Positions 192 through 59,171 of a DNA stretch of 64,000 bases are shown in pieces. Numbering within the stretch: the first letter of the stretch is position 1; every line of letters begins with the position of its first letter. Position numbers and translations under genes: made by a program. This DNA is from Stentor roeselii (lineage: Eukaryota > Ciliophora > Heterotrichea > Heterotrichida > Stentoridae). The stretch spans positions 1-64,000 of the forward strand of contig RSEH01000242.1 of NCBI GenBank assembly GCA_006503475.1. Reading direction: 5' to 3'. The notes under the pieces are model-generated. The model saw only the letters and a list, made by a program, of their open reading frames with translations. It ran no database searches and was not told the origin of the DNA.

Positions 192-1847
192 TCAAGCTGC
201 AATCATCTGGGATGGAAGAAATTCTAATAAATCCTTAAAATTCGGTCGTTGTCTGTAGTTTACTTCCAAGCACATTGAGACAATTTCTGCGAACCACTTG
301 ATCTTAAACCCCTGGATTTTTTTTTTCCTGGTCAGGAACTGTCGTGGGTCGTTGTAAGTCAGAGCTTCTCTGGTGTACATCTGAAAAAGAGTAACTCCGA
401 AAGAATAAACATCAATTTTACTTCTTCGATACCGTCCAGCCATTCCCAACATGACCTTATCTTGAATTTCAGGTGCCATATACCTAAAAGTTCCACCAAC
501 ATCACCCTGAGTAGTAGTAGCTTCTCTAGATTGTTCAAGTGTTGATACATTGAAATCAGCAATAACGAGTTCTCCTTTCTGATTATAGTAAATATTTTCA
601 GGTTTGATATCCTGATGATAAATCTTAGGGTTTTGTTGAGTCATAATAACAAAGCCTTCAATCAACCTTCTAGTCGCACAAGCCAATTCATCTTCCGAAA
701 ACTCTTTCTTAGCCCTTCTCATCGATTCAATCTTCTGATCTAGAGTCAAAGGACAAAACTCCATCACAATTCCCAATTCAAACACATCTTCACCCCCTTC
801 TTCAAATTTCGAAAAAAACCTTCCATAAAACTTCAAAAACGGTCCTTTAAGTGTAGACAACAACCGAAGTATCTCGATTTCCTTTTCAAATCTCTTTAAC
901 GTCCCTTGTGAAAAAGACTTATAAGTCTTAACCGCGACCAGTTCTTCAGTATTCATGATTTTCGCTGAATGAACAGAAACTGTATAAGACTCGTCCTTTA
1001 ACTTGACATCTCGAGTGTAGATCAATTGATGACCTCTCAGTTGATTCGACGTCAAAACCACTTCACTTTCAGGAGCTGGCTTTAAAATCGCTGAATTTTC
1101 GGTGATTCCGTAAGTCAATGCGAATTTTTCAAATCTCAGCTGGAGACTTGCTGGGACTCCTACTTCTTGAATCACGCCTAAAATTCTACTGATTCCTTGA
1201 AGAGTCTTCGCGTTGATTAAAGATGAGATTAAGTATAAGGCTGAATCGATTATCATCACTTTTAGGTCTTCGAAAGGAAAGTTCAATGATAGAAAGTCGT
1301 TAATGATAATCATTAAAAATTTTATATCTTCTTCTTTCGCTTTTTCTGTTAGGGAAAAAATTAGTTCTGAAATTTTTGAGGATAACCAACAAAAAAGACC
1401 TGAAATGTCGAAATTAAAGTTTTTTTTTAAATCAGTTAAAATGTCTGCATATTTTCGATGGGTTTGAAGGTCTTTTGTGTTGTTGATACTTTTGAATAAC
1501 TGGTTTTCGAATTCACCTAGAACGAATTTCAGGTTAAAAAAAGGGTTTTTTGTAAGGATTTTTATATTTTCGATGATAGATCTGCTGGTCTCTGGAGTGA
1601 TCTCTGAGTTTAACTGGGTGTTAAGGATTAATGAATAAAGAAGGTCTAGAAAGGATGATTTTAGTTCAGGTTTTTCCTCAAGGTAAAAAGAAACAGGACC
1701 CAGCATTGAGGACAACTGCTCCAGGCTCAGGGTGTAAGGCGATGAAAGCAGCTGATCAAGAAGATTAATCTTCGGAAGGTCCAACTGAACTTGCAGTTTT
1801 CGATGAAGGAAGAAAGAAATAAAGTTCTTTAATGATGAGCTATCCAT
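192..1847 (-). CDS. divergent protein kinase with long helical N-terminus
   Basis: 551 aa, no intron needed. Residues 1-270 are predicted helical and have no family I recognise. Residues 275-545 are a protein kinase domain: the ATP-site lysine in VAVK (K307), the alpha-C glutamate near 323-325, catalytic loop HQDIKPEN (411-418), metal site DFN (431-433) and GTFRYMAPE (452-460). HQD replaces HRD and DFN replaces DFG, and no clear glycine-rich loop is seen. The ATP lysine and both catalytic aspartates are kept, so it may still be active. The start codon sits in TTATAAATGG. The substrate is unknown and it looks lineage-specific. Confidence 0.85.
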   Translation of the reverse strand: MDSSSLKNFISFFLHRKLQVQLDLPKINLLDQLLSSPYTLSLEQLSSMLGPVSFYLEEKPELKSSFLDLLYSLILNTQLNSEITPETSRSIIENIKILTKNPFFNLKFVLGEFENQLFKSINNTKDLQTHRKYADILTDLKKNFNFDISGLFCWLSSKISELIFSLTEKAKEEDIKFLMIIINDFLSLNFPFEDLKVMIIDSALYLISSLINAKTLQGISRILGVIQEVGVPASLQLRFEKFALTYGITENSAILKPAPESEVVLTSNQLRGHQLIYTRDVKLKDESYTVSVHSAKIMNTEELVAVKTYKSFSQGTLKRFEKEIEILRLLSTLKGPFLKFYGRFFSKFEEGGEDVFELGIVMEFCPLTLDQKIESMRRAKKEFSEDELACATRRLIEGFVIMTQQNPKIYHQDIKPENIYYNQKGELVIADFNVSTLEQSREATTTQGDVGGTFRYMAPEIQDKVMLGMAGRYRRSKIDVYSFGVTLFQMYTREALTYNDPRQFLTRKKKIQGFKIKWFAEIVSMCLEVNYRQRPNFKDLLEFLPSQMIAA

Positions 1848-1902
1848 TTATAAACAAATCACTAAAAATCACTCAATATCTAAACATCTTCTAAAGAATA
1901 TC

Positions 1903-2652
1903 CTAAAAATGTAAAGATATTATGAAATAAGTAATATTTATCCTCAACATAATCGCCAGGACTCCAAAAGACATGATCCCAACAATAGGAACAAGAAAAT
2001 ATTCAGTATTTTTCAAGAATGGAATCGCGCTGAATCCTTTACTTGTGATGAAGAAATAGTAACTTAGTGCTGAACAGTTCAAAAATGAAGAAAGGACTAC
2101 AGTCAGAAAATGATCGACTAGAAGGACTGGCAATAAAAAATACTGCAAAACATAACAAATCAAAAAAACAGGTAAAAATGAATTGCAGTGAACGTCGAAG
2201 CAGTAAAGCCATTCGACTTTTCCAGAAGCTCCTGAATATTTACTTTCTTCATTTTTTAAGTGATTTTCTATGATCAAGCTGAATGTTTCCTACAAGTTTA
2301 CATAAGATACTAAGAGACCAAGTCCTAGAAAATGAATGATAATGCTGTAAAATAAGGCTTTTAGTAGACCGAATGCTCCTTCTCTTTGTGGATGTTACTG
2401 AGTCAGTGCTACTGCGTATGCTAATGAAGTGATTGCAAGACCAACAAGCAACATCACCGGGAACGCAGGATCATCTCTAGCCCAATGATTCTTAATGCCT
2501 ATCTAAAACTCACTTTTCCTCATTTCAGTAGTTTTCACTAGTTTATAAGGTGAGAAACAAATAAAAATCATCTGACAAAAGGTAGAATTGATATCCATCT
2601 GCCTCATGTTCCTGGCCCTGCGGAAATAGCTCCGATACCAGCTTTCCGGCAT
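1903..2652 (-). CDS. UNC50: UNC-50 family Golgi membrane protein, 3 introns
   Basis: Four exons joined over 15-nt introns at 2499-2513, 2384-2398 and 2279-2293 give 234 aa. Recognisable UNC-50/GMH1 blocks follow in order: PESWYRSYFRRARNMRQMD, KNHWARDDPAF, VEWLYCFDVHCNSF and GFSAIPFLKNT. Several hydrophobic segments fit the multi-pass family, which resides in the Golgi and helps traffic receptors such as nicotinic receptors in animals. I chose the ATG at 2652 because it begins the conserved PESW block and follows TATAAT directly. An in-frame ATG at 2703 would run into the divergent gene at 2680. Without the introns only scattered fragments are open. Confidence 0.92.
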
Positions 2653-2679
2653 ATTATAAAGCGAATAACTCGTTAAACA

Positions 2680-3375
2680 ATGGAAAATTCGATGCCCAGC
2701 CACATATCAGAGCTCGTGCGAGCTTTAGCGAGCACAAAAGACACGATAAACGTCCTTCTATCTTACACAGACCTCTTCATTTCCGACCCTTACCTGCACT
2801 CTTTATACATCGAAATGAATTACAATCCACATACAGGGACTTTCGATCATCCTCTCGACCAAGGCAAAGTAATAAAAAAACTATTTGACGAGTACTCTGG
2901 TCTCAAAATTCCTCTAAAAAGAACCCTTTCAGATTCAGACTCTTTCGACAAACCCAGAAATGCCAAAGGACTTAAAATTCTTAGCGCCCGGGTAAAAAGT
3001 ATCTTGATGGGAAAAAAACTCGGATCTTATCGGCAAGTGGCTCAAGAACTTATCAAAGATTTAAACATTGTTAATAAAGCCGAGGAAAAAAATATATTGA
3101 GAAGGGTCTACGACGCGCTTAATGTTCTAATCGCTGCTGGTGTCGTGGTTAAACAAGGAAAAGACTACTGCTGGAAATCTCTAAGTAAAGAAAATCAAGT
3201 AACCCTTAAATGCAAAGAGTTAAAAATCACTGGAAAATGTCTCAGCGAGTCTCTTTCTTCAAGAATTTTAACAATAAGTTCAAACAGTTCAAGTCAGGTC
3301 CTAATTGAAAAGTTTGAAGCGAAGGTTTGTCTGAAGTTCTCAGAAAGTGTGAATGTTTTAGGACATTCGGTTTAA
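2680..3375 (+). CDS. TFDP: DP-type (E2F partner) transcription factor
   Basis: 231 aa. Residues about 97-168 form a DP/E2F winged helix with the signature RRVYDALNVLIAAGVV, closer to DP (RRVYDALNVLMA) than to E2F. DP proteins pair with E2F to switch on S-phase genes. Here the region after the winged helix is only about 60 residues, so the dimerisation part is short or divergent. It is divergent with UNC-50, with 27 nt between start codons, and convergent with the WD40 gene, with 19 nt between stops. An E2F-type protein binding as a homodimer cannot be excluded. Confidence 0.82.
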   Translation: MENSMPSHISELVRALASTKDTINVLLSYTDLFISDPYLHSLYIEMNYNPHTGTFDHPLDQGKVIKKLFDEYSGLKIPLKRTLSDSDSFDKPRNAKGLKILSARVKSILMGKKLGSYRQVAQELIKDLNIVNKAEEKNILRRVYDALNVLIAAGVVVKQGKDYCWKSLSKENQVTLKCKELKITGKCLSESLSSRILTISSNSSSQVLIEKFEAKVCLKFSESVNVLGHSV

Positions 3376-3394
3376 TTTTAACTGTTAAACTATT

Positions 3395-4684
3395 CTACTC
3401 GTTATTATTTTCTTCAGGTACTTCTTCAATTCTCAGGCCGAGTTCAGGGTACTGTTCAAAAATCGCTTTTCCATCCATATAATAAAAGTCATGGTCGACA
3501 TTTCCAGTGATGAGACTTATGAACTTAACCCAACCATCACGAAAAGCACAGACAAGATAATGTTTATCATTTGTAATAGTCGCTATTGTTAAGTTTAAGT
3601 TTCCAATAGTCCCTTTCAAGGCGAGGTTATCAACATCGAACCTTTTAATAGTCCTTTCTCCAGAAACTGCATAAATTTCATCATTTTCTTCATCAATGGC
3701 GAGTGCAGTGATGATTTCATTTCCAGTGTAAATCTTTTTAACGACTTTGATTTTCATAACGTCGTAACACTTAAGAAACCTTTTCACGTCAGTGAAGTAC
3801 AAAAAGGTTCCTTTGGAATTCAAGACCATTGAAAAAATCTTGTATTTGAAGTTTGATATTTGTGACCTCAACCTTGCTTGCTTGTAGTCCCAAACACCGA
3901 TTATCCCGTCGAAAGAAGCTGAGTAAAGAGTTTGCATATCGCAAGCAAGGGCTGAGACTGCTTTAATGTGAAAACTTAACTCTTCGATTTTACTCTTAGT
4001 CTTAATGTTCCATATCACGATTTTTCCATTTGCTGCTCCAGAAAAGCCGAAAGAATTATCAGGGTTTATTGAAAGACTGATGAATGAAGTCTCTTGAACT
4101 GTCTTGTTCATATGAATTTTTAAGTTATCGTTAGTGTTGAAAACAGCGAAAGTGCCACCTGATGAAATACAGAGTAAAAGTGAGGAGTCAGGTGAAAAAA
4201 GAACTCCTGTAGCACTTCCATTGCCTGGAGAACGAGTCTCTATATAATCACCTGACTCGCTGGATAAAAAGAAAACATTTCCATCATCTTGCGCCATTGC
4301 AACGTATTCTCCATTACTTGAAGCGGCAAGTGACCAGACCTGAGATGTGCAGTCTATTTGCCAATCTCGGGAATTTTTAGTTAAGTTGAACTTGGTTAAA
4401 TATTGATTCTCGGCGATGTAGACTGATTGGCCCATTGAAGCTATGGCGCTTATTGGAGTTTTGTGAGGAGAAAAGTCCAAACCTATTGATTTTAACATTT
4501 CTTCGTCTTGCTCTGCATCAGTTTTTTTTGAGTCAGTCAGATGAATGTTTTTTATTGGGTGGCTCTGGGAACTGCCTGATTCTTGCATGTGCAAAAGTAA
4601 GTCTTTTTCACAGAAATTGATTGAAGCATCACATTCACATATGTAAACTGCTGGCTCAGGACATTTTGAGCATACTTCAGTCAT
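3395..4684 (-). CDS. B-box zinc finger / WD40-repeat protein
   Basis: 429 aa, single exon. Residues 1-48 carry paired Cys and His (CSKCPEP, CECDA, FCEKD, LLLHM, SHPIKNIH) like a B-box finger. Residues about 75-410 hold WD40-type blades (for example GKIVIWNIKTKS, GIIGVWDYKQA, ERTIKRFDVDN). This combination of an N-terminal B-box-like finger with a beta-propeller is common among ciliate scaffold proteins of unknown role. No catalytic motif is present. The start lacks the TATAA element seen at many neighbours. Confidence 0.8.
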   Translation of the reverse strand: MTEVCSKCPEPAVYICECDASINFCEKDLLLHMQESGSSQSHPIKNIHLTDSKKTDAEQDEEMLKSIGLDFSPHKTPISAIASMGQSVYIAENQYLTKFNLTKNSRDWQIDCTSQVWSLAASSNGEYVAMAQDDGNVFFLSSESGDYIETRSPGNGSATGVLFSPDSSLLLCISSGGTFAVFNTNDNLKIHMNKTVQETSFISLSINPDNSFGFSGAANGKIVIWNIKTKSKIEELSFHIKAVSALACDMQTLYSASFDGIIGVWDYKQARLRSQISNFKYKIFSMVLNSKGTFLYFTDVKRFLKCYDVMKIKVVKKIYTGNEIITALAIDEENDEIYAVSGERTIKRFDVDNLALKGTIGNLNLTIATITNDKHYLVCAFRDGWVKFISLITGNVDHDFYYMDGKAIFEQYPELGLRIEEVPEENNNE

Positions 4685-5075
4685 TGTTTCTAGGATTATA
4701 GAATATGGATGTGAGAAATTGGGCGAATTAAGGAATTTTTGGAGATTCTTAGAATTTTTAGTTTTAGGGGTAATTGAAATTTAAAGTTTTAAGGGTTTTT
4801 GTCGGTGAAGATATTGTTAGGTAAGAAAATTATTAGAATTCTATAAATTCATTGAAAAAAAATCAAAAAATATTTTCTATATTTTAATCCTACTCTAAAT
4901 AACAATAAAAAATTCTTAAATAAGCTCAAAAAAAATCTTCAATATTTTATCCTATTCTAAATAACAATAAAAAATTCTTAAAGAAGCTTAAAACTCTTCT
5001 ATCTTCCAGGTTTATTCAAATCAATCAAATTCAACTATACCTCAACATTCTTCTAATAATTAAATTTATTTCAAC
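4685..5075. other. AT-rich spacer between divergent genes
   Basis: This 391-bp stretch lies between the start codons of the WD40 gene and the CFAP97-like gene. Its left half is G/T-rich and its right half A/C-rich on the + strand, with the change near 4840. The right half carries two tandem copies of a 62-bp unit. I see no ORF and no RNA gene. Confidence 0.7.
4879..4990. repeat. two tandem copies of a 62-63 bp unit
   Basis: Copy 1 begins at 4879 and copy 2 at 4942. The shared core is TCTAAATAACAATAAAAAAT followed by TCTTAAA and AAGCT. The copies differ at only a few positions. They lie upstream of the CFAP97-like gene, so both promoter and 5' leader DNA may be affected. Confidence 0.85.
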
Positions 5076-5645
5076 ATGTTCAGACCATCATCAACAAAGA
5101 ACTCCTCGCGAGACTTAATCATGGAGCACTCAATCCACAAGAAGCGTTTATCAAGAATCTCATCACGAATCAACAACCAGTCACCAAAACGAATGAAGCA
5201 CGTTGCCGAGAACTCAAAAGGAAGATACCTCGAACTAAGCAAGAAAAACCTCATCCAAACCTCAAACCGCATCCTTGTCGACAAACTTTTAAAAGTAACA
5301 TCAAGAGAAAACTCAGTTCAAAGACCAAGAAAAAACACTGCGCCACCTAACAGACTAAAAAAATTACAAGAAATCGTCAGGATAACCAATGAAAATTTTA
5401 GAATTTTAAACAAAATCAAAACAAGCAGGCCTTATTACAGCTGTGAAAAAATGAGAAAAGATTACGACTTTAAGAAAAATTTGAAGAAAATGATTTCTCA
5501 AAATGCTGGAAGGGTTCCGAAAATCTTGAATTTTACTCAGGTTGTTTTTGAGAATGGACTTGATGCCACTCGGTCAGTGAAGAATTTAAAAATGACTTAT
5601 GGGCCGGGTAGTGATTTGGAGTATATCGAGTATAATGATTGTTAA
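5076..5645 (+). CDS. CFAP97 / hemingway-like ciliary protein
   Basis: 189 aa, very basic. Two blocks match the CFAP97D1/hemingway pattern: residues about 22-70 (HKKRLSRISSRINNQSPKR, later NRILVDKLLKV) and about 90-130 (LKKLQEIVRITNENFRILNK followed by PYYSCEKMRKDYD). In animals the family is needed for motile cilia and sperm flagella. The length matches the short CFAP97D members rather than the long CFAP97. The assignment comes from remembered family patterns, so a profile search would settle it. The last residues are Asp-Cys. Confidence 0.72.
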   Translation: MFRPSSTKNSSRDLIMEHSIHKKRLSRISSRINNQSPKRMKHVAENSKGRYLELSKKNLIQTSNRILVDKLLKVTSRENSVQRPRKNTAPPNRLKKLQEIVRITNENFRILNKIKTSRPYYSCEKMRKDYDFKKNLKKMISQNAGRVPKILNFTQVVFENGLDATRSVKNLKMTYGPGSDLEYIEYNDC

Positions 5646-5707
5646 ATTTTTAGTCAATGAAAATTTAAAGAATGAGGTAAAATTTTATCCGAAGCTATCA
5701 TTATCTA

Positions 5708-6517
5708 TTACTCAACTCTTCCTATACTTTCCCTTTCTCTTATCACTTTTTCTTTAAAGCTAATCTCATTCAGAACGTCTTTAAGTAACGCGAAGTCTCT
5801 TTCCTTTTCAACAAGTGCAGGGACTGTTCTGCACGTTTGAATAACTTGAAGTGGTTTACTTCCTACAAAGTTCATGCAACTTCTCTTAAGGCTCCATTCC
5901 GCGTTTTCAATAATTTTTATCATATAAGCAATTTCTTGTTTAGCCACATCTTGTCTATTCGCAGATTCCTCAACAGTCTTAACAGTAGCAAAGTTCAAAC
6001 TTTCTTGATTTTGACATGACCAGAATAAAAATTTAGTCACAAGTTTAAAAATGATTTTATTGTGCCCATCATAAAGTAAGTCAATAGTGTGAATAATATC
6101 ATTTCCTCCTTTCTTACTTTCCGTCTTCACAGCAAAGCACATCGCATAGCTACGATCAGAAGTTTCTTTAATATAAACAGAAGAAATCGCATTCTTGTAA
6201 AAAGAATTGCAATAGTCCTCAAAAAGCTGCAGTCCTTTCAACTCCAGATCACGAAGAGACTTTGAAGGTGTCGGTCCTTGGATCGAAGGAAGGTACAAGT
6301 TAGAAAAAGGTGACCGAAAAGCATTAGAGTGAGAATTAAATTCACAACAAATAAAAGCCTTTTGCGATTCAGGACATTTTTCTATTTTAAGTCTATAAAC
6401 AAGTGCCTTTTGAATATTTTCTGCTTTTTCAGGAGGGACAATTGAAATCAGGTCATTTTGGATGTCTTCTGGAATGAAAACCTTTTTCATCAGGTTTTGT
6501 ATGGCAGAGGGTTCCAT
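5708..6517 (-). CDS. CAPZB: F-actin-capping protein subunit beta
   Basis: 269 aa, near the usual 270-300. The conserved stretch FICCEFNSHSNAFRSPFSN matches the CapZ-beta block LLCDYNRDGDSYRSPWSN, and AISSVYIKE matches GVSSVYLWD. CapZ alpha/beta heterodimers cap actin barbed ends. The C-terminal tail that contacts actin is present but divergent (LNEISFKEKVIRERES). The alpha subunit is also in this window at 56063. The start is TTATAAATGG and only 8 nt separate it from the start codon of the divergent gene at 6526. Confidence 0.93.
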   Translation of the reverse strand: MEPSAIQNLMKKVFIPEDIQNDLISIVPPEKAENIQKALVYRLKIEKCPESQKAFICCEFNSHSNAFRSPFSNLYLPSIQGPTPSKSLRDLELKGLQLFEDYCNSFYKNAISSVYIKETSDRSYAMCFAVKTESKKGGNDIIHTIDLLYDGHNKIIFKLVTKFLFWSCQNQESLNFATVKTVEESANRQDVAKQEIAYMIKIIENAEWSLKRSCMNFVGSKPLQVIQTCRTVPALVEKERDFALLKDVLNEISFKEKVIRERESIGRVE

Positions 6518-6525
6518 TTATAATA
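6518..6525. promoter_or_regulatory. 8-nt bidirectional start region
   Basis: The whole space between the CapZ-beta ATG (minus) and the ATG at 6526 (plus) is TTATAATA. Read on the minus strand it makes TTATAAATGG, and on the plus strand TTATAATAATG. Any 5' leader of either gene must lie inside the other's coding sequence. Confidence 0.75.
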
Positions 6526-7068
6526 ATGAAGTTTTTTTTTCATCGAGTTCTTGATACAGTTGATAAGTCGATTCCTTATTTGAGCATTTTTTTGTTTTAT
6601 TTGTTGTCAGTCGGGCCAGGCATCGGCTTTTTTCCCAGCGCTTATCAGGACATGAGAAGGATTTTTGTTAGAGAACTTAAAGAAGGCGCCATTCGTGACT
6701 GGCTCTCGAAGGACTGGCTGAAGGATATCATTTGGGATCAGGTTGTTTTTAATAATCCCATTATTCCTGATTGGGCTCCTGGCATGTTTGTGAATTTAAA
6801 GAAAAATCCTTATGTTCAGAGACAAATTGAAGTTCTTATGCAGGGCCTGGATACTAAGGATCTTAATGAGAAATGTTATGATGCTGTTAGGAAAAATAAG
6901 AAAAGATTTAATTTTTTTTTTTGGAAGAAGGTTAGAGAACTGAACCTCGAATTCGAGGTAAAAAATCGTCTACTCACTTCAAACACTCTAAAAAACGTAA
7001 TATCCAAAAACCAAAAAAAAAAAGGTCACGCCGACGTAGTCGAAATCTCAAAAAGCCTTCAAAACTAA
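6526..7068 (+). CDS. unknown protein with N-terminal membrane segment
   Basis: 180 aa. Residues about 15-36 are hydrophobic (YLSIFLFYLLSVGPGIGFF) and the rest is charged and basic, so a single-pass or inner-membrane-type protein is likely. Conserved-looking blocks are WDQVVFNNPIIPDWAPGMF and LNEKCYDAVRKN. I do not recognise the family; a mitochondrial inner-membrane role is only a guess. Base composition switches abruptly from G/T-ending to A/C-ending codons near 6945, inside the gene. It is convergent with the next gene, with 20 nt between stops. Confidence 0.7.
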   Translation: MKFFFHRVLDTVDKSIPYLSIFLFYLLSVGPGIGFFPSAYQDMRRIFVRELKEGAIRDWLSKDWLKDIIWDQVVFNNPIIPDWAPGMFVNLKKNPYVQRQIEVLMQGLDTKDLNEKCYDAVRKNKKRFNFFFWKKVRELNLEFEVKNRLLTSNTLKNVISKNQKKKGHADVVEISKSLQN

Positions 7069-7088
7069 TCCATTAACTTAAAAAAAAA

Positions 7089-8456: not shown

Positions 8457-8566
8457 TTATCCAAGAATTTTTGAATTTTAAGAGATGAATGAAAACTTTT
8501 CCACCTAGCTCTTGACCTAAATTTCAAATGCTTCAATTTCTTAATATAACTAATTTAAACTTATAA

Positions 8567-8887: not shown

Positions 8888-8903
8888 TAAAGATCTAATC
8901 TAG

Positions 8904-9629
8904 TTAAAACGTAAGTCCTTTGGTCATTTCATACAAAGTGACTCTGATACTGGAGCTTCTCAGGATTCTCTCTAAAGAATCACTAGAAGAAACCTTTGCA
9001 ACGAATTCGTCACTTGACAGGGCATCAGCGGATCCAATGAGTTTTTCAACAACGATATCAACAAACTTGGAACTTTCCTTTTCAATGCTTTCGATATAGT
9101 CGTCAAGTTCCTCCTTTGGAAGAGTGTCTTCATTTTTATCTTCTTCGTCAAGTCTTAGGGCAATTAAAGGAATTAGTTTGAGACTGATATGAACCATTTC
9201 TTCAATCATCTTTTTTAATTCACTCTTGTCGAACTTCTCGTTTGCGTCACTGTCGAAATGATTGAATAAAATCCTCGCCTTGGTTTTGCTGTCGTCTGTT
9301 CCGAGCAAGATGGAGCAAAGACTTAGTTTTGAGATGTCGTAAAGCTTGGTCTCGTTTTTTAGCTTGTCGAGAAACTTGTATACTTGAGTGTCTGGGTCTG
9401 TGAAGACTTGAGGGTCAAGGTCTAAGACACCTAATGATTTCTTCAGCTGGGCAACGCTGAGTCTTCCAGAAACGCCATGGGACTTGAATGTCATGTCCAA
9501 GTCTTTCGCTGACTTTTGACTGAACGGAATCGACGCTTCAGCTTTTTCAATGATTTTTTCTTGTCTCGGAGGTTCAATCTTGGGTTTGACGCTCGGAGCT
9601 TTGCGATTCCCTGCCTGACAACAGCCCAT
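8904..9629 (-). CDS. N-myristoylated EF-hand-type protein (MGCC start)
   Basis: 241 aa from the ATG at 9629. The open frame continues upstream only to a TTG; the ATG within CTATAAATATGG is the natural start and yields MGCCQAGNRK, a Gly2 myristoylation site with two palmitoylatable cysteines. One good EF-hand loop is visible, DSDANEKFDKSE near residues 117-128. The other hands are degenerate. The overall plan resembles recoverin/calcineurin-B-like Ca sensors held at a membrane, though no closer class is clear. The upstream same-strand oligopeptidase stops just 15 nt before this start. Confidence 0.82.
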   Translation of the reverse strand: MGCCQAGNRKAPSVKPKIEPPRQEKIIEKAEASIPFSQKSAKDLDMTFKSHGVSGRLSVAQLKKSLGVLDLDPQVFTDPDTQVYKFLDKLKNETKLYDISKLSLCSILLGTDDSKTKARILFNHFDSDANEKFDKSELKKMIEEMVHISLKLIPLIALRLDEEDKNEDTLPKEELDDYIESIEKESSKFVDIVVEKLIGSADALSSDEFVAKVSSSDSLERILRSSSIRVTLYEMTKGLTF

Positions 9630-9644
9630 ATTTATAGCCAAGAG

Positions 9645-17587: not shown

Positions 17588-17753
17588 GTTTATAAAGAAA
17601 TTAAATTTGATTAAAAGGAAGTTTTAATGATTTTCACGTTTTTATTAGAACTATTTAAAGATAGGTTATTTCTAAGCATGTTTATAAGGAAATTAATTTT
17701 GATAAATAGGAAGTTTTAAAGATTTTCACTTTTTATTAGAACTATTTAAAGGT
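17571..17753. repeat. tandem duplication of a promoter and start region, 92-bp period
   Basis: The segment from about 17571 (last codons before the minus ATG, the ATG itself, and TTTATAA) to 17662 is repeated at about 17663-17753. Both copies share GCATGTTTATAA, GAAATTAA, AGGAAGTTTTAA and TTTTTATTAGAACTATTTAAA. Copy 1 serves the minus gene (start 17587) and copy 2 abuts the plus gene (start 17769). A second, orphan ATG with TTATAAACATG therefore lies at 17678-17680 on the minus strand. Confidence 0.88.
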
Positions 17754-17768
17754 AATCGTTTGAATATA

Positions 17769-18023
17769 ATGTCTTTCTTTTTGTGTTGTTGTTCTAAGAA
17801 AAAAAACAAGGCAAACCTTGAAAAGGCTCCGAAGACCATCGTGAAGCAGACCATTTTGATGGGAAGGTCGAATACTTTAGAAGCTAAAATAAAGATTTTC
17901 CAACAAGACACTCAGCCGACAGAGGAATCTGAGAAAAGACCTATCAAGTTCAATACTCTAAAATCAATCAGATTTAGAAAGTCTCATCCTTTACAGAACT
18001 ATGTTTATCCTCGAGACATATGA
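17769..18023 (+). CDS. small membrane-anchored protein, N-terminal Cys cluster
   Basis: 84 aa from the ATG at 17769, which sits in GAATATAATG; the frame is open upstream only to a TTG. The N-terminus MSFFLCCCSKKKNK combines three adjacent Cys and a polylysine patch, the usual form of an S-palmitoylation plus basic-patch anchor. The remainder is basic and probably disordered. No family is recognised. It ends in TGA. The tandem promoter duplication lies immediately upstream. Confidence 0.68.
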   Translation: MSFFLCCCSKKKNKANLEKAPKTIVKQTILMGRSNTLEAKIKIFQQDTQPTEESEKRPIKFNTLKSIRFRKSHPLQNYVYPRDI

Positions 18024-18776: not shown

Positions 18777-18869
18777 TGTTTATAAAAACTTCTAAAGTTA
18801 AAGTAATTCAACCTTTAATCCAATAAGAATTTTTCTACTCATCTAAAAATAAATATTGACTGGTTTATA

Positions 18870-23800: not shown

Positions 23801-23805
23801 TATAT
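23801..23805. promoter_or_regulatory. 5-nt bidirectional start region
   Basis: Two divergent ATG codons (23798-23800 minus, 23806-23808 plus) are separated only by TATAT. The ten bases CATTATATAT plus GG read as an A/T-rich near-palindrome. No room exists for a conventional core promoter or 5' leader outside coding DNA. Confidence 0.75.
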
Positions 23806-30740: not shown

Positions 30741-31167
30741 TGGTTAAGAGAAAATTGGACACCTAATGGTTAGACTAGAAAGAAGAGAATCATCATTATC
30801 ACCAAAATTTTTCTTAAACCTGGAATTTTAACTCATTATAATATCGAAGGAAAAAATATGCTTAAGAAGATGTTTTATCCAAAGAAAGTTTGAATTCAAT
30901 TCATTCCTTATTAAAGTTATTCAAAAGATGATGTTTAATTTCTTTAATTATCATAATTGTGTATTTGTTGATAATTCTTAAATATACTAAGGGTTTGTAT
31001 ACTCACTATCTTTGTAATTTAAAAAAATTTTAGTTCTTTTATCAATTTATTTGCTTTTCGGTGATTGGATTTCTGAGTTCTTCATCAGATGAAGCTATAA
31101 TGGCTATTTGAGTCTAAGTGGAGGATAAACTGGCAGCTCTCTTTTCATTTTCTTTCAATTCTTTATA
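30570..31167. other. spacer upstream of the CFAP57-like gene
   Basis: 598 bp holding the upstream part of the source repeat (to about 30740), then plain A/T-rich DNA, then the start of the duplicate copy from about 31055. No ORF or RNA gene was seen. Confidence 0.6.
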
Positions 31168-33203: not shown

Positions 33204-33262
33204 TTATAAGAAATCTAGTCGAAACCATATTCTTGGCATAATTTAAATATTTCAAGGGAATA

Positions 33263-38546: not shown

Positions 38547-38643
38547 TTATAAGTAAATTTTTGATGTCTACTTCTTTGAATGATTAAATAACTGGCAAGT
38601 CTTCTTGGAATTCTTGATTTTTTGTTAGGTATTTTTGTTATAA

Positions 38644-39734: not shown

Positions 39735-40259
39735 ATGGTAGTTATAATGATTAACCCTGGAAATGAACGACCTGTTTCCCTGGTGAATGTTGAAAGAAAT
39801 CGATATCCGTATTGTTTAGTTTGGACTCCTCTGCCTTTAATCACTGCGCTTTTTCCTTTTATAGGTCATACTGGGATTTGCACGAGTTCTGGCGTCATTC
39901 ATGATTTTTCAGGGTCTTACACTGTTAGTGTTGATGATATGGGATTTGGTGACCCGACGAGGTATGTCCAACTTGATATCAGCGAAATTGATCAGGAAGA
40001 GTGGGATGACTGTGTAAGGGCTGGAGACTTGAAGTACAATACAAGGTGTCATAATTTGTTCTGTGATAACTGTCACAGTCACTGCGCTTATGTGCTGAAT
40101 AAAGCTAAGTATCAAGGAGGGAACTGGAATATGGTTTCTATTGCTTGGGTTATGTTTATCAAAGGAAAGTCTACAGGTTTTTTAGGGTTTTTAAAGACTT
40201 ATATCGGGTTCTTTGCTTTGGCTTCAGTTGTGTTTATTTTTATTTACAAGCCTTTTTAA
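39735..40259 (+). CDS. TMEM222: TMEM222 / DUF778 family membrane protein
   Basis: 174 aa, or 170 if the second ATG at 39747 (TTATAATG) is used, which fits the local start motif better. RYPYCLVWTPLPLITALFPF, GHTGICTSSGVIHDFSGSY and HNLFCDNCHSHCAYVLNKAK are the family's conserved blocks. The role is poorly known; a papain-like (LRAT/NlpC-type) fold has been suggested for relatives, and I see the Cys/His-rich CDNCHSH motif. Two hydrophobic C-terminal segments are present. Confidence 0.9.
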   Translation: MVVIMINPGNERPVSLVNVERNRYPYCLVWTPLPLITALFPFIGHTGICTSSGVIHDFSGSYTVSVDDMGFGDPTRYVQLDISEIDQEEWDDCVRAGDLKYNTRCHNLFCDNCHSHCAYVLNKAKYQGGNWNMVSIAWVMFIKGKSTGFLGFLKTYIGFFALASVVFIFIYKPF

Positions 40260-47653: not shown

Positions 47654-47662
47654 TTTAATAAA

Positions 47663-48805
47663 CTAGTTCTTTGTGATTGAACGTCTCAAGGTCGGAAGGT
47701 ATTTCTGAGGAAGGATCACATAAGGCAAGGTTTTTCTCGACTTTGAAATCGAATCTTTTAAAGTGCCCTGAACAGCTGGAAGTCGAAAAGTCGAGATAGT
47801 CTTCTTCACGATTTTCATTTCTTTCGTTAACATCTCATTATCAGGTGTCACTTTTCCAAGGATTCCCGCTTGATGACAGTTTATTTTAAACTTTTCCCTG
47901 GCAAGTATTTCAAAAAAGTCAGCATCAATATCAGAATCATCAGATTCAAGACTTTCTCTGCTATGTTCTTCACTTTCATAGCTGTTGTTGAGAACAGTAC
48001 TAAGCTGTTTTTTTAAAGTTTCTACTTTTGAGTCAGTATTGTTCCTAATCGACTTTCTATTCGATAAAGTGTTAGACCTTCGAAGTAAAGGCGAAATTTT
48101 TTTACCAAATGCAGACCTTTTTTCACCTTCTTCAAAAGATTCACTGCTGCTTAAAATAACTGTCTCGATTTTTTTATCTTTAGAAATTTTCACTTCTTTA
48201 GATGTTTTAATGTACTTCACCCAAAGATTTTTACTTGAGTCGCTGATAAAGTCAACTGTTATTTCTGATATCGGGTTCTGGTAGGACTTCAGAAGAACTG
48301 AAAGAATTAACTTTGATAAGGTTTTTGCCTGATTGCAAAGGTGAACATCTTTGCATTTAAGAAGACCCGCTGCACTGATTGAGAAAAATTTGTAAGAATA
48401 TTTGATTCCTCGGATGTGAAGATGAATTGAATAAAAAAGCTTTTCTTTACATCCTGGTTTCAAACGTTGAAGACAGAGAATCGAAGGAAGGGTCTTTCGT
48501 CCGTCTAGCATTTGTTTGATGTCTTGAGAACTTAAATCTCGCTGGTCTTTAAATGTGTAGGCAAGACATAAGCAGCTGTTTTGATCTCTGAAACTTGTGA
48601 ATTTTTCGAAGTCTTTTAGGAAATTTATTAGTAAGGTGTTAACACCTCCTAGTCTTGTTGTGCTCATCTCGATGTTGGAGAGGACTGAGTTTGAATAGCT
48701 TTTCTTGCAGGTACTGTTTGAAAAAAAGTAGGTGTGTAAAATCGGGAGTTTGTAGTTTGAGGAGGATAAGTGAGAAAGGATGGTCGAAAATTCTTTGATG
48801 TCCAT
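47663..48805 (-). CDS. unknown protein, Cys-rich front and basic disordered tail
   Basis: 380 aa. Residues 1-200 look folded (LPILHTYFFSNSTCKKSYSN; LCLAYTFKDQRDLSSQDIKQ; KYSYKFFSISAAGLLKCKDV), with about ten Cys. Residues 205-380 are Ser/Lys-rich with acidic patches (SEEHSRESLESDDSDIDADF). No family recognised. It precedes the SH3 gene by only 9 nt on the same strand. Confidence 0.68.
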   Translation of the reverse strand: MDIKEFSTILSHLSSSNYKLPILHTYFFSNSTCKKSYSNSVLSNIEMSTTRLGGVNTLLINFLKDFEKFTSFRDQNSCLCLAYTFKDQRDLSSQDIKQMLDGRKTLPSILCLQRLKPGCKEKLFYSIHLHIRGIKYSYKFFSISAAGLLKCKDVHLCNQAKTLSKLILSVLLKSYQNPISEITVDFISDSSKNLWVKYIKTSKEVKISKDKKIETVILSSSESFEEGEKRSAFGKKISPLLRRSNTLSNRKSIRNNTDSKVETLKKQLSTVLNNSYESEEHSRESLESDDSDIDADFFEILAREKFKINCHQAGILGKVTPDNEMLTKEMKIVKKTISTFRLPAVQGTLKDSISKSRKTLPYVILPQKYLPTLRRSITKN

Positions 48806-52210: not shown

Positions 52211-52373
52211 CTAGTTAAGAGTTATCATCATGAATCCAATCTTCCCTAATCAACCCTCAAACTTCTTCTATAAAAAAAATTAAATCTCGAAATCCTCCCC
52301 TCTAACCACTCGGCACTCAACCCTCCTCATTCTCTCCATGATCTAAGATTTAAACCAAACAAACCTTCCATAA

Positions 52374-54569
52374 ATGTCTAAAGTTCCAGCAAAGTACCTG
52401 TTCGATTCACCCACAGTCCAAAAAGGTCTCGAGCCAGAAATAAAGCGAAACGATTTCACCTTCGAGAAAAAGCTGGGCGAAGGAGCTTTCGGCGAGGTGT
52501 GGAAAGTAGTTCACAAAATTTCCAAAAAGGTCTACGCGATGAAGCAAGTTCTCAAAGAAAAGGTTGCGAAAATGCTTCCTCAATTTAAACGTGAAGTATA
52601 CATTATGTATAACCTGAACCATCCCCACATAGTGAAAATCATGAACCACTTCGAAGACGACAGAAGTTTCTACCTCCTGATGGAATTCGCTGACGGGGGC
52701 AACCTTTATCATCGGCTTCATCGTCAGCGACAGTTTATTGAAGTAGAGGCTGCCCAGTACTTCCGTGAAATAGTCTTGGCTGTTGAGTACCTTCATAGTC
52801 ACAACCCTGCAATCATTCATCGAGACATAAAACCTGAAAATATTCTGATTGATTCCAATGGACGTGCAAAACTCACTGATTTCGGATGGTCGAATTACCA
52901 AAGTCAACAAGATGAAGCCCCCAGGAAGACCGTCTGTGGGACTTTGGAGTACTTGCCTCCTGAAATGATTGAAGAAAAAAGCCATGATACCACTGTTGAC
53001 ATCTGGTGTCTTGGAGTCCTTTTGTATGAAATGCTGGTCGGCTTCACTCCTTTCAAGTCGCAAACAAAGAAAAATATGTTGATGAATATTTCACAGAATA
53101 AACCGAAATTTCCTTTAAGCTTTCCTCCCCTTGCCAAGGAGTTAATTGTGAAGATGCTTGCGAAGGACTCGAAAGAAAGGATTAATATTACAATGGTGAA
53201 AAATGATAGATGGCTACAAGAAATGAAACCTTTTAAAGATACTATTTCTCAGAACTTGAACTTGATACCGCTGCCTAATTATCATGATAGTATTCCTCTT
53301 GAATTTAAGTGCTTTGATGTTGTTGGAAAAACTGAAGAAACTATGAATGAGTCTGAAGAATGCTCAAGTGATGACTTTGAACTCAGCTCTGATAATGGCT
53401 CGACTGATGAAAGTGAAAAAATTAGCACTGTGTTTTTAGAGGATATGGCATGTAAACAGAGTATTAGGATCATCAAGCAGGGAATACAAGAAACTCAAAA
53501 TTTATTGATCAAGTCTAAAGCAGAAGTTAATGATAAGGAATTGATTGCGAAGGAATATTCTACGGCCTTGGGAATTTTGGAAAGTAAGATACAGGCTAAG
53601 AAGAGAGAGCTCAATTATTTGATTAATAATGAAAAGGAATTATTGGCGCATATTTCGGATCAGGAAGTCCAGTTAACAGGAATGACTGCCCATAGTCTAG
53701 TCGAAGACATGATTTCCGACATCCACAAACTAAAGAAAAACCTATCAGACTACTCAATGGAGCATAACGTGCTCACTTTAAAAAAAGAAACAATAAAAAA
53801 AGAATACGCCAGTTACCTCGAACTCCACAACGAGAAAGAAAGCGACCTTCACAAGCTTCAACAACAATTACAAGATATAAAACAATCAATAACTCAAACC
53901 CTCAGACAAGGATCAACCAACAGTTTAGAACTTTCAATGCAAATGGACATAATTCAATCAAAAAAGGAAAACCACGAACAAATCACCAGAGCTTTCAGCG
54001 AAGAAGAACTTTCCATAGCCAAAGACATCAGAGACGTCGTCGGAAACCCAAGACTCTTCCAGTTCCTCAACGAAGAAGAAATTGAAGAGAAACTCGCGAA
54101 AATCGAGGAAAGAATAAACGAAAGGAAACAAAGTCTGACAGACTTGAAACTTGAATTTGAAACTAGAAAGATGACATTAAATCAGGACTTTAAAAAGAAA
54201 AAAGAAGAAATTCAAAATGAAGGGAAAAAAAGCTTGAAAGACTTTCAGACAGAGTCGAAAACCAGGCAAGATAAAGAGAAAAAAGAAGTCCAGGATCAAT
54301 TGAAGAGGGCGAGAGAACTTGAACATTCTTTTCAGTTACATGAAGGAGAACTAGGACAAGCTGCGAAGAAATTAGAGGTAAGAGAAAAGTAGAGACTTAA
54401 AGAAGAAAAGACCAAGTTGATGAATATTAAACAGATGAATATTATCAAAAAGATGAAAAATTCTCAGATTCTAGGACATATCAATGAGGAAATTGAAAAA
54501 ACCAAAGATGAGCTGAACCAGGTAAAGGTTTACTATTACTGCATGGAAAACGGCATAGAGATCGATTAA
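52374..54569 (+). CDS. Aurora-like kinase with long C-terminal coiled coil, 1 intron
   Basis: Two exons over intron 54378-54392 (gtaagagaaaagtag) give 726 aa. Kinase domain at 27-285: GEGAFGEV, K57, HRDIKPEN (149-156) and DFGWS (169-173). DFGWS and the activation loop RKTVCGTLEYLPPEM, with T186, are Aurora signatures. Residues 355-700 are coiled coil, far beyond the short tail of normal Auroras (300-400 aa). The middle (about 320-350) is Ser/Asp/Glu-rich. Aurora kinases control mitotic spindles and, in some protists, flagellar length. Start CATAAATG. Confidence 0.88.
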
Positions 54570-54582
54570 TTAATAACCTTAT

Positions 54583-55664
54583 TTATTCATTGACCTGTGT
54601 CTCCACTTCCTTCCATACATTTTCTAAGTAAAAATTACTGCAAGTACAACTGTCGTTATCGGTTTCACAGCTTGACATATTTCTTCATGTGTCGGTACAA
54701 TCCTTTCATATAGTCCAGGACTCAAAGGATTACAATCTCGATTAAGCCAAGGATCAAGTAAAATTTCATAAATCTTTGCCCTACTTTCAGGATTCTTATC
54801 CAGTAACTTCCTCAGCAAGCCTTCAAGTTCAGGGTTCAACTGATGCTCGAAATCCAGTCGAAACTCAGCAATACTCTCAAAAATCTGCAAAGTATTCAAA
54901 ACAGGAAAAGGAAGTTTTTTAAACACCAAGGCATACAAAATGAGTCCAAGTGCCCAGATATCAGCAGCTTTTCCTGAGAACTCTTTCCGATTCTCTCCAC
55001 AAGACTCAGGAGGGACAAAGTGAATAGTTCCAAGAGTTTTTTTCTGTTTGTCGCTATCTTGAAAAAAAGTAGCTTGTCCGAAATCTCCTATTTTAACAAG
55101 ATACGCGTCAGTCAATAGGATATTCTGAGGTTTCAAGTCGCGGTGAATAATATTGTGATAATGAAGATACTCTAAACCGCTGACCATGTCTCGAAAGAAC
55201 TTGCGGATTAGATGTTCAGGGATTGGGCTGTTGTTGTTCCAAGGACTGTAAAAAGATTGACTGTCTTCGTCCCATTCGAGTAGAGAGCCTTTGTGACAGT
55301 AAAACATTATCATGTACATCTTGTCGCACTCTTCGTCGTCGATGACTTCTCGAAGTTTTACGATGTTTTGATGTCGCAGCTTTTTCATTATTGCGATTTC
55401 TTGCGCGATGTCTTCAAGCGCGTTTTTCACGATCACTTTTCCTTCTGCGTTTCGGTGGATTTCACGTCTTCTACGAAGGTTTGCCTTGTTTATCACCTTC
55501 ACTGCGTAGAAACGACCGTTGAATGAACAGAGCTTTACTTTACCGTAAGTACCTTCACCGATTTTTCGAAGGAGGGTGTATTGGTTTACTGTTGGGTGCC
55601 CTTCGCTGTCTTGTCCGAAGGAGATGTTGCAAGTGATTATCGGACTCACTAGGTCATCTTCCAT
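54583..55664 (-). CDS. CaMKK/LKB1-upstream-type protein kinase, 1 intron
   Basis: 354 aa over intron 54624-54638. The kinase domain begins at 29 (QYTLLRKIGEGTYGKVKLC), with K56, HRDLKPQN (174-181) and DFGQA (194-198). A 20-residue insert between K56 and helix C (ANLRRRREIHRNAEGKVIVK) is the hallmark of CaMKK and of yeast Sak1/Elm1 relatives, which activate AMPK/CaMK-type kinases. No calmodulin-binding tail is evident. Active-looking. Convergent with the Aurora-like gene, 13 nt between stops. Confidence 0.87.
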
Positions 55665-56062
55665 TATGTTTATTTGAATTTACATTATTGAAGGGATTAT
55701 TGCTGACATTATCAGTATCCTAAAGTCTCAATTAAATCTTATACATTTAATGAAAAGTATCTTCCATCCATTTCATTTCAAAAATGAATTCACCAGTCCT
55801 CAACAATCAAAGTGAATATCTTCAATATCCTAAAAAAGTCTATATTCTCAAGAAAATAATTTTTGTAATGCCTAACTTTCTTACCAAAGTATTTTCAAAA
55901 GACCTAAAAACTCCAAAGAAAAAAAATCAAAACTAAAATTAAATTTATCAACTCAAAGCCAATCCAACATAAAAAAACTCCAAAATAATCACTTATCCCC
56001 TTCATCACCTCTAAAAAGCACCGAAAATTCTGCCAAATCAAAGTTTCTCCAACATCTTATAA
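55665..56062. other. spacer between divergent genes
   Basis: 398 bp, A/T with an A/C-rich right half. It holds the TTATAA element just before the capping-protein alpha ATG. Nothing else noted. Confidence 0.55.
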
Positions 56063-56845
56063 ATGGAACTCACAGAAGACAAAGGAAAAGTGATCCGATA
56101 CTTCCTGAAAAACACTCCAGTAGGTGAGCACAAAGAAGTAGTAAAAGACCTTGAAAAAATAATCGGAGAAGAAGCAGTGCGTTCAGAGGTCTTCGCAGAT
56201 TCTTTGCTGGAGCACCTCTCAGACCACGGTTCCGTGATTTCCCACGAAAACGTTCCCTTAATGCTGACGACTCTCGGGCGAAATGGATTCACGTTCTTTG
56301 ACCCGAAAGCTTCTTCGACGTTCGACGTAGACCCGTACACTGAAACAGTCTCTAACGTGGCACAAGTGCAATCCGGGACGTCCTTGTCACAGATGCTTCA
56401 AGAGAAACTCGATGCTTATCTGCATGCGCACTTTTCAGAAACCGCGCAAGGAAGAGTTTTCCAAAACGACGAAGGACTTTTCGTCATTATTTCATGTCCG
56501 AGTGTGAACTTGAGGAACATGTGGACCGGTGAATGGCTCAGCGAGTGGAAATTCGCAGACGGTACCTTAGAAGGCAAAGTCGAATTCCACGCTCATTACT
56601 TCGAAGAAGGAAACTTGAAGTGTGCCCAATCAAAGCAAGTGTCCAAATCAATCTCAGCAAGTTCCGAAGAAGAAGGGACAACTCAGATAATTAAAACGAT
56701 TCACGAAGCTGACAACCAGATCCAAATCGGTTTAAAAGACTTATACGAAAGTGTGCCTCAAGTAGTCTTCAAACGAATGCGACGTGCAATGCCAGTGACT
56801 CATCAGAAATTTGCTGACATGTACAGAACGAAGATGTTCAGCTAG
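56063..56845 (+). CDS. CAPZA: F-actin-capping protein subunit alpha
   Basis: 260 aa (family about 286). LKNTPVGEHKEVVKDLEKII matches the N-terminal THAPPGEFNEVFNDV block, NMWTGEWLSEWKF matches NFWNGRWRSEWKF, and VEFHAHYFEEGNL matches IQVHYYEDGNV. The C-terminal ALRRQLPVTRTK block is RMRRAMPVTHQKFADMY, so the actin-binding region is present. It is the partner of the beta subunit at 5708-6517. Start TTATAAATGG. G/C-rich codon use suggests high expression. Confidence 0.93.
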   Translation: MELTEDKGKVIRYFLKNTPVGEHKEVVKDLEKIIGEEAVRSEVFADSLLEHLSDHGSVISHENVPLMLTTLGRNGFTFFDPKASSTFDVDPYTETVSNVAQVQSGTSLSQMLQEKLDAYLHAHFSETAQGRVFQNDEGLFVIISCPSVNLRNMWTGEWLSEWKFADGTLEGKVEFHAHYFEEGNLKCAQSKQVSKSISASSEEEGTTQIIKTIHEADNQIQIGLKDLYESVPQVVFKRMRRAMPVTHQKFADMYRTKMFS

Positions 56846-56870
56846 TCTTAGTTAGTTACTATTTCTACAC

Positions 56871-59171
56871 CTAATTCCTTGAAAAGTTGAATTCAGCCAC
56901 TGAGTCACCCAGTTCTTCTTCATCATAATCCTCATCATCCACAATTTTATTGCTTGAAGCAACGACCGGCAGGTCCTCCGCAGGTTCCTCCCCAGTTTCA
57001 TCCAACTGAAGCCATTTATTCCCAAGTCTCGGAGGCTTGATCCTTTTATTCTCCAAGTCTTCCCAGTTGATATCCTTGAAAAAGATGTGATGCTTGACTT
57101 GGCTGATACTCGGTCTTTTTGTAGGGTCCTTATGCATCAATTTTCGCATTAAGTCCTGTGCTTCGGGTTTCACTGTTTTCGGGAACTGAAGCATTCCATT
57201 TTTGATGTTTCTGAAAAGTTCTTTGATGTTGTCAGAGTAAAAAGGAGGAAGTCCTGTGAGGAGTTCGTAGAGAATGGCGCCGATTCCATAGACGTCTGCT
57301 GGCTTCTCAGAACCTGACTTGGTCAGCATCTCTGGGGCCAGGTAGGCAGGCGACCCGCAGAAGGACATGGCGGGGTTCAGCGGGTTCACGTTTTCCTTGG
57401 CCAGGCCGAAATCGGCCAGGCGGATGTGCCCTGCTCGGTCAACGAGGATGTTCTCGGGCTTTAGGTCACGGTAGACGATGTCGAGAGAGTGAAGGTGCTC
57501 GACTGCTAAGATGGTCTCTGCTATGTAGAAACGCGCCACGGATTCTGCAAAACGACTTCTTTCGGATAAGTGAGTCATTAGGTCACCGTTAGGACATAGC
57601 TCGAGGACCATGTATAAGTTTTTAGGTGTCTGAAATGCGTAGCTCATCCTGATAATAAAAGGGTGTCTCAAGTACCTCAAAATCTTGCATTCCCCAATAG
57701 CATATTTAATCTGTTTCTGGTTAATCAAGAACTGCTTATTCAGCTGTTTTATAGCAAAGACTTGTTTGGTATCATTCTTAATCACCTTATAAACCTTTCC
57801 AAAACTTCCACTTCCCAGTTCAGTTAAAATAGTAAAACTTTTAAAGTTGACCTCATCTTTCTTTTTCTTTTGCACGAAGGTGCTTTTAATCATTAAAGCT
57901 TCTCTTATCTTTCTCTCCTCGTCGTCAGCCTTGGGCTCGACCTCGACATATCCTCGTTTAAGGACCTGGCAATAGTTGATGCCGCTTTGAAGACGATTGA
58001 TCCACTCATTTGTCAGTTCTGGCTCTAAAGTGTAAAACTTATAACTTCCCAGTTTTGAGTACAAAATAAAACACATCGCGTTCTTGTTGCCGTATTGAAG
58101 TCCTTTCGATGCTTTGATGTCCCAGATGTCGATTAGCTTCACTGAAAGCCATGGCTCTTCTTGCTTCATGAATGAGTCTTTGTCTTGGAAGACTTTCAGG
58201 TAGCCGTTGTCGTGGTCGATGTAGAGAAATACTAACTTGTCTTCTATCACAAGACTGCCTGTGTAGTAGACTTCACTTGAAAAGTTCAAGGCGCCTTTAG
58301 GGATGTTCTCGTTTATGCTCTGCAGCTCACGCTCACCCATATACTTAGGAATCAATTCAAAAATCTCTTGAGTCGAAGCAACCTGCAAAGGAATCATTCC
58401 AGCTCCATCTTCAATAGTCATACTTGCATTATTTTCAATAAGTACTTCCGCAATATTCGAATACCCTTTCCTACAAGCAATATGCAAGGCAGTTCCTTTG
58501 CCCCGTGTCATTTTATTAATCTGGATTCTTGGGTGTTTTAAAATAGCTTTAACACATTCAAAGTGTCCATTATTGACAGCAAGCATAAGAGGTGTAGAGT
58601 TTTCCTTGCTTTCCCTGTTACAAGCGCCATTTCTCGCAACGAACAACTGAACCATATTCGAGTGTCCAAGTTGGCAAGCATAATGAAGTGCAGTGCACCC
58701 GGTCGAGTCAGCAACACTGAACAAGTCTTCTTCCTCATCGACCACCTTCGTCGATTCTTCTCTTTCATAGTCCCCGATGACCTGCAGCACGCCACTCAAA
58801 ACTCCTGCCTGAATCTTCTCAACAAGCAGGCCGATCCAGTCCTTCGACGGCGCTTCTTGCTTCTGCTCCTTCATTTCTCGCATTGACTTCAACTTTCCCC
58901 TCACCTGGGCTTCGGCCTCGTCTTCTTGACGGAAGATGTCTAAGAAAAGAGCTGAGTTTTCGTTGATGCCCAAAGAGATTAATGTCGACTCGTCTGGAAG
59001 CAAGATTTCATTTCCGTCTTTGATTGCGAGAATACGGATCACGTTCGGTGGATGGGAAATCAGCGCGGATAGTCTTTCTTTCAGCGCGATTACTGTCACG
59101 TCTTGTGGCACTTCCACGGTTTGCTTCAGTGATTGACTTGATGAAGAAATATGCTTAAAGGTTAGCTGCAT
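56871..59171 (-). CDS. Ubl / ankyrin / PH / AGC-kinase multidomain protein
   Basis: 766 aa, single exon. N-terminus 1-82 looks ubiquitin-like (VTVIALKERLSALISHPPNV). Ankyrin repeats span about 155-290 (GCTALHYACQLGHSNMVQLF; NSTPLMLAVNNGHFECVKAI; KGTALHIACRKGYSNIAEVL). A PH-like domain is at 300-402 (YYTGSLVIEDKLVFLY to WINRLQSGI). The AGC kinase begins near 445: GSGSFGKVYKV, YRDLKPEN (about 564), DFG and CGSPAYLAPE; HRD is YRD, common in AGC kinases. The tail is acidic and lacks a clear hydrophobic motif. A membrane-recruited signalling kinase. Start TTATAAATG. Confidence 0.9.
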   Translation of the reverse strand: MQLTFKHISSSSQSLKQTVEVPQDVTVIALKERLSALISHPPNVIRILAIKDGNEILLPDESTLISLGINENSALFLDIFRQEDEAEAQVRGKLKSMREMKEQKQEAPSKDWIGLLVEKIQAGVLSGVLQVIGDYEREESTKVVDEEEDLFSVADSTGCTALHYACQLGHSNMVQLFVARNGACNRESKENSTPLMLAVNNGHFECVKAILKHPRIQINKMTRGKGTALHIACRKGYSNIAEVLIENNASMTIEDGAGMIPLQVASTQEIFELIPKYMGERELQSINENIPKGALNFSSEVYYTGSLVIEDKLVFLYIDHDNGYLKVFQDKDSFMKQEEPWLSVKLIDIWDIKASKGLQYGNKNAMCFILYSKLGSYKFYTLEPELTNEWINRLQSGINYCQVLKRGYVEVEPKADDEERKIREALMIKSTFVQKKKKDEVNFKSFTILTELGSGSFGKVYKVIKNDTKQVFAIKQLNKQFLINQKQIKYAIGECKILRYLRHPFIIRMSYAFQTPKNLYMVLELCPNGDLMTHLSERSRFAESVARFYIAETILAVEHLHSLDIVYRDLKPENILVDRAGHIRLADFGLAKENVNPLNPAMSFCGSPAYLAPEMLTKSGSEKPADVYGIGAILYELLTGLPPFYSDNIKELFRNIKNGMLQFPKTVKPEAQDLMRKLMHKDPTKRPSISQVKHHIFFKDINWEDLENKRIKPPRLGNKWLQLDETGEEPAEDLPVVASSNKIVDDEDYDEEELGDSVAEFNFSRN

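Follow-up and report, generated by a model that had tools for sequence, protein, structure and literature searches.

A TTATAA Motif Adjoining Start Codons in Stentor roeselii and Its Possible Role as an Initiator-Type Core Promoter Element

Introduction

What does a TATA-like sequence do when it stands directly against a start codon? The question is raised by a 64,000-nt stretch of the heterotrich ciliate Stentor roeselii (contig RSEH01000242.1 of assembly GCA_006503475.1, positions 1 to 64,000 of the forward strand, hereafter the window), in which the palindrome TTATAA, or a close variant of it, precedes the ATG of many predicted genes. A classical TATA box precedes the transcription start by 25-30 bp. 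The original prediction offered three meanings for an element placed this close to ATG: a TATA box that sets a transcription start inside the open reading frame (ORF), an initiator for nearly leaderless mRNA, or an aid to translation. Here we report that the motif is enriched and contiguous at a narrow range of positions before ATG, in tightly packed genes. We give about an even chance to the reading that TTATAA (in looser form ATAAA) at the ATG is an initiator-type core promoter element of nearly leaderless mRNAs.

Sites of the Element

Seventeen start codons had been named as carrying the exact or near element and five as carrying a looser ATAAATG (8456, 36465, 38906, 49241, and 52374). All 22 are ATGs with the claimed TATA(A) or ATAA immediately or a few bases upstream. 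Counted by eye, the form at the 17 sites is exact TTATAA at -6 to -1 in eight, TATA fused to ATG in five, and TATAA followed by one to three further bases in four. The sites are as follows.

1848-1853, minus strand: TTATAA, -6 to -1 of the kinase gene starting at 1847
2654-2658, minus strand: TATAA, -6 to -2 of start 2652
6518-6523, both strands: palindromic TTATAA common to the divergent starts 6517 (minus; capping protein beta; -6 to -1) and 6526 (plus; -8 to -3)
8561-8566, plus strand: TTATAA, -6 to -1 of start 8567 (EB1-like C-terminal motif)
9632-9636, minus strand: TATAA, -7 to -3 of start 9629, 15 bp past the stop of the upstream tandem gene
17590-17594, minus strand: TATAA, -7 to -3 of start 17587
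17765-17768, plus strand: TATA, -4 to -1 of start 17769 (short model, outside the 45-gene counts below)
18780-18784, minus strand: TATAA, -8 to -4 of start 18776
18866-18869, plus strand: TATA, -4 to -1 of start 18870
23801-23805: the 5 bp TATAT between divergent starts 23800 (minus) and 23806 (plus); the minus side reads TATA fused to ATG
31164-31167, plus strand: TATA, -4 to -1 of start 31168
33204-33209, minus strand: TTATAA, -6 to -1 of start 33203
38547-38552, minus strand: TTATAA, -6 to -1 of start 38546
38638-38643, plus strand: TTATAA, -6 to -1 of start 38644 (short model, outside the 45-gene counts)
39743-39746, plus strand: TATA, -4 to -1 of start 39747 (alternative in-frame start 39735)
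56057-56062, plus strand: TTATAA, -6 to -1 of start 56063 (F-actin capping protein alpha)
59172-59177, minus strand: TTATAA, -6 to -1 of start 59171 (ankyrin-repeat kinase)

Missing from the original prediction were start 6526 (plus strand), which uses the element of 6517, and the weaker sites 13736 and 41220, with TATAA at -11.

A Contiguous Motif Before ATG

Genes were modelled with a gene finder written for this analysis, which relies on codon scores, ATG, stop codons, and short GT..AG introns and excludes any promoter term. Statistics were taken over 45 gene starts, after eight models shorter than 300 bp, including those at 17769 and 38644, had been dropped. TATAA begins at -10 to -4 in 16 of the 45. 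The controls fall far lower, at 14 of 373 for non-coding ATGs (Fisher p 1e-9) and 24 of 1821 for the other ATGs (p 3e-17). The count of 16 takes one gene to start at 2652 instead of at the modelled 2607. With 2607 retained, TATAA begins at -5 in seven genes, at -4 in four, at -7 in three, at -8 in one, and at -11 in two; moving the start to 2652 adds one more, at -6. The sequence TATAAATG occurs ten times in the window (3.43 expected; ten copies were reached by one of 100 shuffles), and eight of these copies lie on a modelled gene start. Dinucleotide shuffles of each upstream region served as background for the 5-mers at -10 to -4. In the 45-gene set the top z values belong to TTATA (14 genes, 1.46 expected) and TATAA (15 genes, 1.90 expected), followed by ATAAA (20 genes, 3.35 expected). 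Across 1000 shuffles no 5-mer exceeded 13 genes. When the set is narrowed to the 34 longer genes, ATAAA comes first, then TTATA and TATAA. Chance and AT-richness are rejected by these shuffles together with the ATG controls.

A motif of this kind could in principle arise as a by-product where intergenic DNA is AT-rich and the first ATG after an in-frame TAA is chosen as the start. The upstream DNA is indeed AT-rich, and TAA stands at -3 in 13 of the 45 starts. Non-coding ATGs in the same surroundings, however, lack the motif. TATAA is found in seven of the 13 gene starts with TAA at -3, in none of the 16 non-coding ATGs with TAA at -3, and in two of 43 such ATGs overall. The excess shrinks yet remains when register -5 is left out (9/45 vs. 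14/373, p 2e-4), and it survives the dinucleotide shuffles. Bias from in-frame stops is thus insufficient as the source of the motif, and the by-product explanation, which we hold to be very improbable, is already largely refuted.

Is the motif more than a set of preferred bases? A is favoured at -1 to -4. To keep every such preference, the bases of each position were permuted among genes. TATAA at -12 to -4 is seen in 18 of 45 starts against a mean of 6.9 in these column shuffles, none of 5000 of which reached 18, and TTATAA is seen 15 times against 3.2. TATAA before ATG is therefore a contiguous motif beyond independent base preferences, and a purely independent preference is disfavoured. 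Contiguity comes mostly from registers -5 and -4, where the observed counts were reached by 3 and 55 of 5000 column shuffles.

These controls bear on the proposed aid to translation, in which an AU-rich UUAUAA before AUG would keep the start open or be read by the ribosome. The peak tied to ATG, the favoured A at -1 to -4, and contiguity that is strongest at -5 and -4 would all suit such a signal, and the original suggestion is compatible with the data. On the other side, base preferences alone do not produce the motif, which also occurs at -7, -8, and -11 in a few genes, although an RNA motif of fixed register would still pass both objections. We consider a translation signal unlikely.

The classical TATA box is rejected by position. 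TATAA peaks at -5 and -4, and RNA starting 25-30 bp downstream of it would lose the ATG. At -60 to -16 there is no excess of TATAA (seven occurrences over 45 genes), and hence no conventional TATA box at a greater distance from ATG. The presence of TATAA is not linked to gene layout (11 of the 18 genes with TATAA are divergent, as are 17 of the 27 others) or to a short upstream gap (p 0.27).

Start Codons and Gene Packing

Several of the ATGs that adjoin the motif look like real protein starts, judging from the proteins they would open: the family matches of the two F-actin capping subunits begin at residues 11 and 18, the protein from 9629 begins MGCC, which we take to be a lipid-anchor type N-terminus, and the second residue is Glu or Asp in 15 of the 45. 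A transcription start placed inside the ORF by a TATA box consequently finds no support. The motif had also been expected to help in choosing true starts. This holds in part: it points to 2652, an in-frame upstream start that the gene finder missed in favour of 2607, and at 39747 it marks a start that competes with 39735. At 9629 it is not needed, as this is simply the first ATG of its ORF.

Genes in the window are closely packed. Head-to-head start codons lie 5 bp (23800/23806), 8 bp (6517/6526), and 10 bp (11732/11743) apart. The two genes at 6517/6526 share a single palindromic TTATAA (6518-6523) as their element, and the pair 11732/11743 has no TATAA. Between tandem genes, the gap from upstream stop to start codon is 9-16 bp at 47663/47653, 32901/32890, 9645/9629, and 39730/39747, so that the upstream poly(A) site and the downstream start must nearly coincide or overlap. 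Taken together, these gaps leave no room for a leader plus a separate promoter outside neighbouring coding DNA.

This packing bears on a further alternative, in which TTATAA is a core promoter element within a short leader and transcription starts 10-30 nt upstream, with the element between that start and ATG. There is a precedent in the AT-rich element of Pseudokeronopsis (PMC8899921), the median Paramecium leader of 19 nt (PMC5485702) would suit it, and so would the possible scarcity of upstream ATGs as far out as about -30. Where divergent ATGs are 5-10 bp apart, however, each leader would be antisense to the coding start of its neighbour, and a register so near ATG would be left unexplained. 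We regard an in-leader element as somewhat unlikely.

How the Element May Act

In an initiator-type core promoter, the RNA polymerase II machinery would bind the element and RNA would start within it or a few bases from it, leaving an mRNA leader of about 0-10 nt. TTATAA reads the same on both strands, so a single copy could serve two divergent genes. We infer the action as DNA, the transcription start at the element, and the identity of the binding factor. Of the three meanings first offered, an initiator for nearly leaderless mRNA has the most in its favour, namely the position of the motif, its contiguity, and divergent starts 5-10 bp apart. It is preferred because the motif is contiguous, no TATA signal lies further upstream, some divergent starts nearly touch, and certain ciliates have short leaders, among them Paramecium (median 19 nt; PMC5485702) and Nyctotherus (8-44 nt in 14 genes; PMC2633312). 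Untranslated regions are also reported to be short in Blepharisma (PMC9942806). As expected of an initiator, AT-rich sequence lies at the start codon of many genes, with TATAA itself within 12 bp in only 18 of 45.

Several observations weigh against an initiator-type element. TATAA within 12 bp is missing from 27 of 45 starts, so the motif is not universal, and contiguity is weak at -12 to -6 (seven of 45 seen, 3.7 expected, reached by 322 of 5000 column shuffles). A blind expectation-maximization motif search over -80 to -1 gave loose patterns with no positional preference and no TTATAA; its seeds were GC-rich, which makes it a weak test. No Pfam family matches the divergent partners at 6526, 23806, and 11743, whose models depend on coding scores of 26.5, 46.7, and 31.7, respectively. 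ATGs are possibly depleted at -30 to -1, with four non-coding ones (about ten expected from a composition estimate) and eight in all positions. Such depletion would fit leaders of up to about 30 nt, and these counts are too few to serve as a measure of leader length. Finally, short leaders are not the rule throughout the ciliates, since those of Tetrahymena are long, with a median of 88 nt as quoted in PMC5485702.

A more specific form of the initiator-type reading can be put forward tentatively, as possible and clearly less probable than the general one. In it, the palindromic TTATAA joined to the start codon would serve heterotrichs as TATA box and initiator in one: RNA polymerase II would be positioned by TBP or a related protein, RNA would start on the element to give almost leaderless mRNAs, and one symmetric copy could fire in both directions where divergent starts are 5-10 bp apart.

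Comparison With Known Start Elements

Among the literature matches listed, judged by title and the start of the abstract, none deals with heterotrich core promoters; this is not proof that such work is unpublished. The element is nearest in anatomy to the case of Giardia, which it resembles, and membership in that class is not claimed. In Giardia, AT-rich sequence around ATG is described as setting the transcription start, and the leader usually measures 1-10 nt (PMC1805757). Common to the window and the Giardia initiator (and, by inference, that of Spironucleus) are AT-rich DNA around ATG, the lack of an upstream TATA box, and a compact genome (PMC1805757, PMC1872034). Giardia, however, is an unrelated diplomonad; in its histone genes, transcription is reported to begin at A triplets that precede ATG by 1-27 nt and to require another motif further upstream (PMC1872034). 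The TTATAA core found here is sharper than the Giardia sequence.

In vaccinia virus, TAAAT is fused to ATG. Late-promoter initiators of vaccinia virus, TAAAT(G/A), and of African swine fever virus, TATATA, are likewise short and TA-rich and overlap the transcription start (reviewed in PMC5294985). They belong to viral polymerases and genes, whereas the window is cellular DNA with spliceosomal introns.

Likenesses are also seen with AT-rich 5' elements of two spirotrich ciliates. Halteria grandinella is reported to have a TATA-box-like AT-rich motif tied in position to the transcription start and the start codon, together with short leaders (PMC7858049). In that species the transcription start mainly follows the motif by 13-25 bp and is itself followed, after about 18 nt, by ATG, on chromosomes that carry single genes; in the window the element touches ATG. 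In Pseudokeronopsis, an AT-rich 5' cis-element between transcription start and start codon is linked to active genes (PMC8899921). It is a loose motif, WnAWTWn, on nanochromosomes, whereas here TTATAA occurs in multi-gene DNA and is once common to two divergent genes.

The Window and Its Genes

The final version of the gene finder gives 53 genes and 30 introns of 15 nt, and about 80% of the window lies within modelled genes. An earlier intron model, in which a branch A was not required, gave 67 introns, many of them doubtful, and was superseded by this stricter one. The A at intron position 10 is imposed by the final model and hence is not an independent result. In a fixed-length scan that required only GTA..AG, length 15 gained 50.4 with 11 introns, and among 20 other lengths only 17 (3.1) and 21 (20.5) gained, with one intron each. 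Splicing raised the prolyl oligopeptidase match from 92.8 bits in the longest unspliced ORF to 133.8.

The genetic code is standard by scoring (2963.9, compared to 2960.0 or 2961.7 with TGA as sense). Read as sense, TGA would occur in frame four times against 136 TGG codons. Alternative codes were rejected, TAA and TAG as glutamine scoring far lower (2625.9). TGA, which is not read as sense, is the stop of only two of the 53 models, 192-1847 (minus strand) and 17769-18023 (plus strand). Stentor coeruleus is likewise reported to use the standard code and to have introns of 15-16 nt, those of 15 nt with a branch A at position 10 (PMC9505925), while Blepharisma shares the intron size of Stentor but reads UGA as tryptophan (PMC9942806). 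With its 15-nt GT..AG introns and standard code, the window is concluded to be heterotrich-ciliate-like macronuclear DNA of a compact genome. The idea of a footprint left by ciliate DNA elimination was put aside on reasoning only.

Pfam matches in the window are eukaryotic and include several protein kinases, both F-actin capping subunits, WD40, E2F, RING/B-box, EF-hand, a cytosolic-carboxypeptidase-like protein, an aspartyl protease, prolyl oligopeptidase, and a DHHC palmitoyltransferase. The two capping subunits lie about 50 kb apart (5708-6517, minus strand; 56063-56845, plus strand), each with exact TTATAA before its ATG. A tRNA search of the window found none, and an Rfam scan at gathering thresholds gave no match. 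A scan of viral contigs with the capping alpha protein as query found no relative; a scan of genome contigs with one kinase returned one bacterial relative, which was not used, and no ciliate sequence.

Upstream of the 53 models, C exceeds G on the sense strand (0.13-0.19 vs. 0.08-0.10 at -125 to -1), and the two are level by about -250. At third codon positions of genes of at least 600 bp, C is 0.23-0.25 and G 0.16-0.20 over the first 100 codons or so, and the difference is gone by about codon 180. This excess of C over G forms a polar skew around gene starts.

Implications

Heterotrich 3' untranslated regions, with a median of 21-23 nt, were described as the shortest in eukaryotes known to the authors of one survey (PMC4967479). 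If 5' leaders are equally minimal and the core promoter touches ATG, the arrangement would show how short an RNA polymerase II promoter can be. It would also supply gene finding and reporter design with a start signal, and it would raise the question of how a free-living cell translates near-leaderless mRNAs.

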